64,000 nt of DNA from Haliea salexigens DSM 19537. Lineage in GTDB: Bacteria; Pseudomonadota; Gammaproteobacteria; Pseudomonadales; Halieaceae. The notes under the pieces are model-generated. The model was not told the DNA's origin and did not search any database. It worked only from the letters and a program-made list of their open reading frames with translations. Location: NCBI RefSeq assembly GCF_000423125.1, contig NZ_AUHJ01000007.1, positions 62,001 through 126,000 on the forward strand, in the 5' to 3' direction. Every line of letters begins with the position of its first letter. Position 1 is the first letter of the stretch. The translations under genes and the position numbers were made by a program. Positions 47,738 to 50,577 of the stretch are shown one piece after another.

Positions 47738-48235
47738 ATGAATGAACTTGTCGGTATTGTCATGGGTTCCCGTTCTGACTGGGAAACCATGCAGGGCGCC
47801 GCAGAGACCCTGGTTGAGCTCGAGGTGCCTCACACGGTCGAGGTGGTGTCGGCACACCGCACCCCCGATCGGCTCTTCAGCTACGCCGAGGCGGCCGAGT
47901 CAGTCGGGTTACAGGTGATTATCGCGGGTGCCGGCGGCGCTGCGCATCTGCCGGGCATGCTGGCAGCCAAAACACAGGTGCCGGTGTTGGGCGTGCCGGT
48001 GCAATCCCGCGCCCTGAACGGGCTCGACTCGCTGCTTTCCATTGCGCAGATGCCCGCAGGGATCCCCGTGGGCACGCTGGCGATCGGCCGTGCCGGCGCG
48101 GTGAATGCCGCGTTGCTGGCCGCGGCCATGCTCGCCAACCACGATCCCGCCCTGCGCGAACGGCTGCGCGCCTACCGCGCCCGTCAGTCAGACACCGTGC
48201 TTGCCCACTCCGACCCCAGAGTACCCCTGTCGTGA
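47738..48235 (+). CDS. purE: N5-carboxyaminoimidazole ribonucleotide mutase
   Basis: Class I PurE, 165 aa; converts N5-CAIR to CAIR in purine synthesis. [13 protein letters not shown] at the N-terminus, SAHRTPDRL, and [13 protein letters not shown] segment [12 protein letters not shown] are the known active-site blocks. ATG 47738 has SD AAGGGG. Its stop overlaps the purK start by four bases. Confidence 0.97.
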
Positions 48236-49326
48236 ATATCGGTATCCTTGGCGCCGGTCAGCTGGCGCAGATGTTGGCCCTGGCGGGATATCCGCTGGGT
48301 TTACGCTGCACGTTCCTGGCCCCTGAGGCGGACCCGTGCGCTGCGCCGCTGGGGCAACACCTGCGTGCGGGGTATGAGGACGAAGCTGCGCTGGCATCCT
48401 TCGCCGAGCGTATCGACGTTGCCACCACGGAATTTGAGCATATCGCCCCGGTGGCACTGGATGCTCTGGAGCAGCGCGGCTTGCTCGCTCCCTGCAGTGA
48501 AGCCATCCTGCTCTCCCAGGAGCGGCTGCAGGAGAAATCCCTGTTTACGCGGCTGGGTCTGCCCACGGCGCGTTATGCGGCCATCGATTCCGAGACGGAT
48601 CTGGAACAGGCGCTGGCGGTAGCCGGGGTGCCAGCCATCCTGAAAACCCGCCGCATGGGCTACGACGGCAAGGGGCAGGCGTCAGTGGCGGCAGCTTCCG
48701 AGCTGCTGCCTGCCTGGGAGGCCCTGGGCCGCGTGCCGTGCATTCTGGAAGCGCGTGTTGCGTTTGACCGTGAACTGTCGGTCATTGCGGTGCGTGGTCG
48801 GGACGGTGAGTGCCGCATCTGGCCACTGAGTGAAAACAGTCATGCGGAGGGTATTCTCCGCGTGTCACACTCCCTCGTAGACGACCCCATGGAGGGCCCC
48901 GCGCGGGATTACTGCGAGCGTTTGCTCAAAGCACTGGATTATGTCGGCGTGCTGGCGCTGGAACTGTTCCAGTGCGGCGACCAATTGCTGGTGAACGAGT
49001 ACGCGCCACGTGTGCACAACAGTGGGCACTGGACGATAGAAGGCGCGGTAACCTCCCAGTTCGAGAACCACCTGCGCGCAATTGCCGGGCTGCCCCTGGG
49101 CTCCACGGCAGCGGTGGCCCCCAGCGTGATGGTCAACGTGATAGGCGAGTGGCCCGCGGCGCGCGAGTTGCTGGCGGTGGACGGCGCTCACCTGCACGAT
49201 TATGGCAAGTCCCCGGCACCGGGGCGCAAGCTGGGGCACATTACCCTGGTCAACCGCGATACCGAGGCTTTGCAGCAGCGCACCGCCGAACTGACCCGGC
49301 TCGTCGCCGGCGCAACCGGCGCCTGA
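48232..49326 (+). CDS. purK: N5-carboxyaminoimidazole ribonucleotide synthase
   Basis: 364-aa ATP-grasp enzyme that uses ATP and bicarbonate to carboxylate AIR; PurE then rearranges the product. Typical N-terminus [16 protein letters not shown]-grasp motifs include [12 protein letters not shown] and [14 protein letters not shown]. Starts at GTG 48232 overlapping purE, and ends one base before sbtA. Its bicarbonate demand makes the following transporter genes notable. Confidence 0.97.
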
Positions 49327-49327
49327 T

Positions 49328-50272
49328 ATGGACCCCGTTGTCCTCTTTTTCCTGTTGGGGGTCATCGCGGGGATATTGCGTTCGGAGCTGCGCCTGCCGG
49401 TACAGGTCTATGAGCTGCTGAGTATTCTGCTGCTGCTGGCGATTGGCATGAAAGGAGGCATCGAGCTTGCCCGCCAGCCCTTCCTGGAGCTGGCGCCGCA
49501 AATGCTTGCGGTGGTGGCCATGGGGTTCGTTTTGCCCTTGTTGAGCTTCCCGGTGCTGCTCAGTATCGGCCGCTTGCCGCGGGCTGACGCCGCATCCATA
49601 GCGGCTCACTATGGTTCGGTAAGTGTGGGCACCTTTGCCGTTGTGGTCGCCTACCTGGGTTCGCGGGAGATCGATTTCGAGGCCTATATGCCGCTTTTTG
49701 TGGTGTTGCTGGAGATCCCGGCGATCCTCGTCGGCATCGTCCTCGCCAAAGGGCTCGCCAGTGGGGCAAAGCTGCGCGATTCAGCCCATGAAGTGCTGCT
49801 CGGCAAGAGCATCGTTCTGCTCGTGGGCGGGCTGCTGATCGGCTGGATTGCCGGCGAAGAGGGGCTGGCGAAGCTGGCCCCCCTGTTCTTCGACCCCTTC
49901 CAGGGGCTGCTGGCGCTGTTCCTGCTGGAAATGGGGCTGGTGACCGCAAGCCAGATTAGCACGCTACGCCGCTATGGTTTTTTCCTGCTGGCCTTTGGTG
50001 TGCTCACCCCCGTGCTGTCCGCGTTGGTCGGGCTCGGGCTGGGCTGGGCACTGGGTTTGTCCGTGGGTGGTGCGGTGGTACTGGCGACGCTCGCCGCGAG
50101 CGCCTCCTACATTGCCGTGCCCGCCGCCATGCGTATTTCGGTCCCTGAAGCCAATCCGGCCCTGTCCCTGGCCGCATCGCTGGGCGTGACCTTCCCCTTT
50201 AATGTACTGTTCGGCATTCCGCTGTACCATTGGTTCGCTGGCCAATTCTACGCACTGACCGGAGCCGCCTGA
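49328..50272 (+). CDS. sbtA: SbtA-like sodium-dependent bicarbonate transporter
   Basis: 314-aa inner-membrane carrier (DUF897/SbtA family) with about ten helices. Characteristic segments are LRLPVQVYELLSILLLLAIGMKGG and AHYGSVSVGTFAVV, and the second half has ASASYIAVPAAMRI. In cyanobacteria SbtA imports bicarbonate with Na+ and is inhibited by SbtB; other bacteria may use it for other anions. It begins one base after purK, with no visible SD, implying translational coupling, and is followed by sbtB two bases later. Confidence 0.86.
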   Translation: MDPVVLFFLLGVIAGILRSELRLPVQVYELLSILLLLAIGMKGGIELARQPFLELAPQMLAVVAMGFVLPLLSFPVLLSIGRLPRADAASIAAHYGSVSVGTFAVVVAYLGSREIDFEAYMPLFVVLLEIPAILVGIVLAKGLASGAKLRDSAHEVLLGKSIVLLVGGLLIGWIAGEEGLAKLAPLFFDPFQGLLALFLLEMGLVTASQISTLRRYGFFLLAFGVLTPVLSALVGLGLGWALGLSVGGAVVLATLAASASYIAVPAAMRISVPEANPALSLAASLGVTFPFNVLFGIPLYHWFAGQFYALTGAA

Positions 50273-50274
50273 TC

Positions 50275-50577
50275 ATGGAACAACACCCCCGACGCCTGCT
50301 GACTGTTGTCACCGAATCCACCATCGAGTCGCACCTGTTGCGCGATATGGAGCGCTGGGGAGCACACGGTTACACGATTACCGAGGCCCGCGGCAAGGGT
50401 GCGCGCGGGGTGCGCGAGGGCAACTGGGAAGCCAACCGGAACCTGCGCATCGAAGTCGTCTGCGATGATGTGACCGCGGACCGCATTGCGGCCGGGTTGC
50501 GCGAGCACTACTACGACAACTACGCCATGATCCTCTACACCTGCGATGTGGACGTGCTGCGTCGCGAGAAGTTCTAG
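50275..50577 (+). CDS. sbtB: SbtB-like PII-family regulator
   Basis: 100-aa PII-like trimeric regulator. Its T-loop region (about 36-57, GKGARGVREGN) resembles cyanobacterial SbtB, which binds adenine nucleotides and plugs SbtA. The C-terminus ends DVDVLRREKF without the redox CGPxGC tail seen in many cyanobacterial SbtB, so that layer of control is missing. Immediately after sbtA. Confidence 0.82.
   Translation: MEQHPRRLLTVVTESTIESHLLRDMERWGAHGYTITEARGKGARGVREGNWEANRNLRIEVVCDDVTADRIAAGLREHYYDNYAMILYTCDVDVLRREKF

Follow-up and report, generated by a model that had tools for sequence, protein, structure and literature searches.

What does a transporter of the SbtA bicarbonate family, which has been studied mainly within autotrophic CO2 fixation, do behind the purine genes purE and purK of a bacterium in whose genome no RubisCO is found? 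The question is raised by a 64,000-nucleotide stretch of Haliea salexigens DSM 19537 (the window; assembly GCF_000423125.1, contig NZ_AUHJ01000007.1, positions 62,001 to 126,000 of the forward strand), in which genes of the SbtA and SbtB types directly follow purEK. We propose that these genes probably form a low-CO2 module, which couples bicarbonate import to the bicarbonate- and ATP-using carboxylation of 5-aminoimidazole ribonucleotide (AIR), an arrangement that suggests joint control of inorganic carbon supply and purine synthesis. The order and spacing of the four genes, described in an earlier note on this DNA, were confirmed by coordinates and family models:

47738..48235, + strand: purE, N5-carboxyaminoimidazole ribonucleotide (N5-CAIR) mutase, predicted class I-like (TIGR01162, 211.9 bits; cut-off 149.6)
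48232..49326, + strand, GTG start: purK, N5-CAIR synthase, with HCO3- and ATP as substrates (TIGR01161, 361.4 bits; cut-off 318.4)
49328..50272, + strand: sbtA, Na+-dependent bicarbonate transporter family (Pfam Sbt_1, 383.3 bits; cut-off 27)
50275..50577, + strand: gene for an SbtB-like PII protein (Pfam P-II, 76 bits; cut-off 25)

The adjacent purE and purK genes overlap by four bases, one base separates purK from sbtA, and the PII-family gene begins two bases downstream of sbtA. In the window genome (G000; 99.98% complete, 76 contigs), the sole PurE and the sole PurK match above cut-off are those of the window locus; a second match to the PurK profile (173.9 bits) is PurT, not PurK, scoring 630.8 bits against the formyltransferase model. 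The locus shares with bacterial purEK operons a PurE that appears class I-like from its family model, followed by PurK in an overlapping gene, and differs in the added transporter, PII protein and divergent NhaR-type regulator.

In the proposed mechanism, SbtA would import bicarbonate together with Na+, SbtB would gate SbtA according to the energy or carbon state of the cell, and PurK would spend bicarbonate and ATP on carboxylating AIR for PurE. The four genes would probably be expressed as one transcript under the NhaR-type regulator. When little dissolved CO2 is available, as may happen in alkaline or CO2-depleted water, the bicarbonate pool and the bicarbonate-using enzyme would be raised together, and the gain would lie in coordinated supply and use rather than in channelling.

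Recurrence of the linkage

Conservation of the neighbourhood, which the earlier note had set beforehand as the test of its proposal, was examined in 61 genomes of the window's family, Halieaceae, of which 19 carry Sbt_1. The proposal survived: with linkage defined as purE within 5 kb of sbtA, the link is kept in 14 of these 19 genomes, which are related to each other, and occurs in five gene orders overall. The order purE-purK-sbtA-sbtB is found in the window genome, G027, G043, G055 and G010, the order purK-purE-sbtA plus a PII gene in G006, G029, G044 (where sbtA is split across two contig ends) and G046, and the order sbtA-purE-purK in G024, G031, G039, G041 and G053. The SbtA and PurEK rows of G039 are identical to those of a Halioglobus assembly (L166). 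We kept G046 in the linked count despite the incomplete purE beside its sbtA (L066, G046:C61), which matches window PurE residues 63-158 only; a full-length lone PurE is encoded elsewhere in that genome.

Sbt_1 exceeded the cut-off in 54 genomes of a class-wide sample of 369, window genome included, and three of the other 53 are linked by the same 5-kb definition (G200, G085 and G266). The third case is loose, with further open reading frames (ORFs) between sbtB and purE. If genes were placed at random in an assumed genome of 3 Mb, the probability of 3/53 would be ~0.001, and that of 2/53, without G266, ~0.016. Genome contigs were also scanned with the SbtA alignment, and the 80 best-ranked among at least 589 relatives were taken, a set that leans toward window-like SbtA. 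PurE or PurK stands in the locus for 18 of the 80, including tight same-strand modules in 15; three loose loci (L159, L163 and L165) were excluded from the latter count. The modules occur in Chromatiales, Porticoccaceae, Pseudohongiella, Kangiella, Neptuniibacter, Pleionea, Microbulbifer, Halioglobus, Aeromonas and betaproteobacterial and other gammaproteobacterial assemblies. To the three orders of the family they add sbtA-sbtB-purE-purK and purE-purK-purC-sbtA-sbtB, the gene between purK and sbtA being PurC in the betaproteobacterial loci L118 and L134; no purC lies between purK and sbtA in L146. In two Meiothermus loci, a gene for isocitrate dehydrogenase lies ahead of sbtA-sbtB and is divergent from purE (L165 scanned; L163 has the same ORF cluster at that position).

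On an SbtA tree of 104 rows (14 near-copies or partials, L144, L081 and L082 omitted), the linked/unlinked label changes at least 13 times, in a quick tree that does not distinguish gains from losses. A second tree, of PurE and PurK together (52 rows; L060, L071, L190 and L201 omitted, the L066 row having the incomplete purE), clusters the window set and G043, G027 and G010 with G017 (Shimodaira–Hasegawa-like approximate likelihood ratio test, SH-aLRT, 98). G017 (L193) has acyltransferase-helicase-purE-purK-truC-thiolase in the window's order without NhaR and sbtAB, the helicase flank standing next to purE and the truC-type (DUF446) flank directly after purK. NhaR and sbtAB were therefore either gained around purEK in the window lineage or lost in G017. 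In G010, sbtAB follows purEK and no NhaR match was found within the 16 kb fetched.

One relative has exchanged the transporter. G007, in which no Sbt_1 match was found in the genome, encodes Proton_antipo_M (DabB-like), DabA (901.6 bits), purE and purK in one run (L197, G007:C55). The purEK pair of G007 and the sbtA-linked one of G031 are sisters (SH-aLRT 100) inside the sbtA-purE-purK clade, and two non-homologous inorganic-carbon systems thus stand in the same place. The DAB or MpsAB systems resemble the present case as inorganic-carbon uptake in non-autotrophic bacteria, with DabB-like and DabA genes before purEK in one relative where others have sbtA; they are not homologous to SbtA, and to our knowledge they have not been known as partners of purEK.

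These histories bear on the possibility that sbtAB simply landed behind purK and was kept there by drift or horizontal transfer. SbtA is apparently often transferred (70-74% matches in Actinomycetota and on plasmids), and G017 has the same locus without sbtAB. However, chance would hardly produce five gene orders scattered over the tree together with a transporter swap, and we regard chance or selfish adjacency as very improbable. We found no description of the sbtAB-purEK pairing in the literature, although our searches were narrow and swamped by unrelated word matches, and hence are weak evidence of absence.

Candidate uses of imported bicarbonate

The family membership of SbtA and SbtB would fit a RubisCO-based CO2-concentrating mechanism. 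By residues, SbtA proteins encoded beside RubisCO or carboxysome genes in proteobacteria fall into the same subfamily as window SbtA (66-67% identity to it in the RubisCO genomes G124 and G219), but in such autotrophs the carboxylase partner is RubisCO, whereas the 99.98% complete assembly of the window genome has no match to the RubisCO large subunit (PF00016). RubisCO was likewise not found in any of the 19 SbtA-bearing family genomes searched. Across the 72 SbtA-bearing genomes searched for it, RubisCO is present in 39, comprising 1/17 linked (G266) and 38/55 unlinked genomes. A part in RubisCO-based carbon concentration was rejected for the window locus on the missing match and has next to no probability.

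A broader role is harder to set aside. SbtAB could serve all anabolic carboxylases, such as acetyl-CoA carboxylase, carbamoyl-phosphate synthase and phosphoenolpyruvate or pyruvate carboxylase, and stand beside purEK through a shared low-CO2 regulon, with purines as no special beneficiary. The bicarbonate pool is diffusible, the majority of SbtA genes in the class sample have no purEK next to them, and sbtAB is found near RubisCO genes in some loci and after biotin-carboxylase-type genes in others. In five of the best 80 loci (L129-L132 and L140, in Pseudomonas, Stutzerimonas and one further gammaproteobacterium), genes of the biotin carboxylase and pyruvate carboxylase B or oxaloacetate decarboxylase alpha types precede sbtA-sbtB, as scanned in L131 and assigned by clustering in the other four; biotin carboxylase uses bicarbonate. 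Nevertheless, PurK is the recurrent partner across several lineages and orders, two betaproteobacterial loci include PurC as well, and within the family SbtA is found together with PurK. These points make a general supply function unlikely, though it is the alternative to which we give most weight.

The co-occurrence was counted with PurK taken at 268 bits or more, weaker matches elsewhere (146-182 bits) being assumed PurT-like; in 8 of the 19 SbtA-bearing family genomes the PurK match falls slightly below the NCBI cut-off of 318.4 (298-318 bits). PurK is present in all 19 SbtA-bearing genomes and in 16/42 SbtA-less family genomes (Fisher p 2e-6, kinship uncorrected). Among genomes at least 90% complete, the counts are 18/18 and 16/31 (p 2.5e-4, likewise uncorrected).

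The proposal of the earlier note that sbtAB may feed purine synthesis is thus partly supported. The conserved link, the five orders, the DabBA swap and the tracking of PurK speak for it, while the transport and the purine benefit are still inferred. Because cytosolic bicarbonate is a shared pool, we word the claim more softly: sbtAB is encoded together with the bicarbonate-using AIR carboxylation route.

Transporter, PII protein and regulator

Window SbtA aligns with positions 1-307 of the 308 in the Sbt_1 profile, and the one distinct sequence that it matched among solved structures is the cyanobacterial SbtA Slr1512 (E 2.6e-25). By homology, window SbtA is a predicted bicarbonate carrier. 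The closest solved structures for the PII protein are TTHA0516 (1.9e-22), a putative PII-like protein (2.9e-10) and SbtB entries (3.8e-10 and weaker). The window pair shares with cyanobacterial SbtA-SbtB (Slr1512-Slr1513) the Sbt_1 family, the adjacent PII-like partner and two of the four proposed bicarbonate ligands; it differs in its purEK neighbours, the lack of RubisCO, the replacement of Tyr140 and Ser327, and the lack of CGPxGC. This C-terminal motif was not found in window SbtB, which ends in LRREKF; it is not a required SbtB feature, since it is conserved in some SbtB homologues only (PMC8352866). Uptake of inorganic carbon by SbtA- and SulP-family carriers of sulfur oxidisers is cited from other work in a passage of PMC6689103. 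As excerpted from PMC12628692, transcript levels of one sbtA of Thiomicrospira pelophila differed 280-fold when low inorganic carbon was compared with high, and a second, carboxysome-linked sbtA showed no rise (0.4). Plasmids of Arthrobacter and Pseudomonas carry SbtA homologues 70-74% identical to that of the window, which points to horizontal transfer.

Several observations weigh against the proposed low-CO2 module. Linkage is the minority state among SbtA genes of the class (3/53, one of them loose), and five of the SbtA-bearing family genomes have sbtA apart from purEK. A frequent link of DabA with purE was rejected, the two being neighbours in 1/57 DabA loci examined (30 from a subset of the class matches and 27 from the family matches). 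Sixteen SbtA-less family genomes have PurK, and PurK therefore does not require SbtA. Beta-carbonic anhydrases are encoded twice in the window genome and at least once in each of the 14 linked family genomes; import would therefore be less needed, and imported bicarbonate could leak. A second SbtAB of the window genome stands away from purEK. Finally, two of the four proposed ligands are changed in window SbtA: Ser114 (S99) and Ser324 (S260) are kept, but Tyr140 is replaced by V125 and Ser327 by A263. In Slr1512, alanine in place of any of these putative bicarbonate-binding residues (Ser114, Tyr140, Ser324 or Ser327) leaves ~10-40% of transport activity (PMC8352866).

The same two ligand changes occur in SbtA encoded near RubisCO genes (L085 and L086). 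The Tyr140 equivalent is missing in 27/27 linked rows of the SbtA alignment, 5/5 biotin-carboxylase-linked rows and 71/72 others. The only row with the tyrosine, and the only one also with the second serine, is the second SbtA of the window genome (L057, G000:C1:3941-4981), which is of the cyanobacterial type, keeps all four ligand residues and is followed by its own SbtB-like gene. As to carbonic anhydrase, an excerpt of PMC6689103 describes MpsAB and carbonic anhydrase as mutually replaceable. A role of SbtA as a carbonic anhydrase substitute was not supported in view of the two beta-type enzymes of the window genome, in a search confined to the beta type.

Upstream, the span given in the earlier note (47738-50577) was right for the four genes and left out a divergent NhaR-type gene. 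The features that flank the module are:

46651..47568, - strand: NhaR-type LysR regulator gene, divergent from purE (NCBIfam NhaR, 240.5 bits; cut-off 219)
47569..47737, no strand: intergenic region, putative control region (alignment of four genus members)
50607..50924, + strand: DUF446 / tRNA pseudouridine synthase C family gene, right flank (Pfam DUF446, 108 bits; ORF from 50586)
44541..46673, + strand: helicase-type gene, left flank (71% identity to the L193 (G017) gene matching Pfam Helicase_C_2)

NhaR responds to Na+, and the NhaR-type protein is a candidate regulator of the operon. Genes of this type adjoin the modules of the window (240.5 bits), its genus members (243.9 in G043), G006 (250.8), G046 (246.7), G085 (218.5) and Aeromonas (206), the last two being below the cut-off of 219. 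They also stand beside purKE in G008 and G032, where sbtA lies elsewhere; no NhaR-like match was found at L061, L099, L109, L116 or L135. SbtA could serve pH or Na+ homeostasis, either by importing bicarbonate as a base or by moving a different anion together with Na+, under the control of a Na+-responsive NhaR; purEK would then merely have been captured in the transcript. The recurrence of NhaR-type neighbours and the two changed ligand residues fit such a role. In three scanned sbtA-purE-purK modules (L145, L166 and L170, the last in Microbulbifer variabilis), the divergent LysR gene instead matches CbbR best (225-239 bits, far below the cut-off of 450), and one relative has DabA, which is annotated as a probable inorganic carbon transporter subunit. 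We therefore consider pH or Na+ homeostasis improbable and retain the low-CO2 module as the preferred reading.

The intergenic region contains an AT-rich block with two TCGAAT copies, which, one base aside, is identical in the four aligned congeners; the block overlaps a weak sigma-70-like match at 47585-47614. A promoter scan of 46600-51100 gave one site, compared with a mean of 0.9 in shuffled sequences, and a sigma-70-like promoter is therefore unproven. The NhaR-type and helicase genes converge, with a 23-base overlap at 46651-46673.

Two possible routes of AIR carboxylation

A passage of PMC3261824 gives AIR, bicarbonate and ATP as the substrates of PurK and CO2 as that of class II PurE; its authors relate the lack of PurK in archaea to the availability of CO2 and also point out cases of class I-like PurE where PurK is missing. 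Cyanobacteria with purK mutations require high CO2, as stated in an excerpt of PMC10880623.

Eight family genomes (G006, G024, G029, G039, G041, G044, G046 and G053) encode a further PurE elsewhere, near which no purK was found within the 5 kb fetched (L177-L184), and the sole PurK-grade match of each adjoins sbtA. These lone PurE proteins have 47-52% identity to window PurE and read AAAGMAAHLAG at the place where PurK-linked PurE has letters of the AGAGG type. The similar AAAGLAAHLAG occurs in the lone PurE (L190) of G219, a RubisCO genome with no PurK-grade match. PurEK plus a further PurE, with no Sbt_1 match, is found in G007 and G056; in the latter, the missing Sbt_1 may be an assembly gap, because the contig ends 259 bases past the purE match. 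No PurK-grade match was found in 26 of the 42 SbtA-less family genomes (15 of them at least 90% complete). PurE is matched in 21 of these 26 (184-202 bits), and the remaining five are all less than 90% complete.

We tentatively suggest, while holding it to be rather less probable than not, that some Halieaceae possess two interchangeable routes of AIR carboxylation: a lone PurE that would act on CO2 without PurK, and an inducible cassette of importer and PurEK that would take over when CO2 is scarce, the importer being SbtA or the unrelated DabBA. The window genome would have the importer-coupled route only.

The recurrent association with a bicarbonate-using purine step gives a concrete, testable reason for SbtA in bacteria without RubisCO, and the module suggests that CO2 can limit purine synthesis in some waters. 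If the two-route scheme is true, purine synthesis would be a main reason for inorganic-carbon transporters in bacteria that lack RubisCO.

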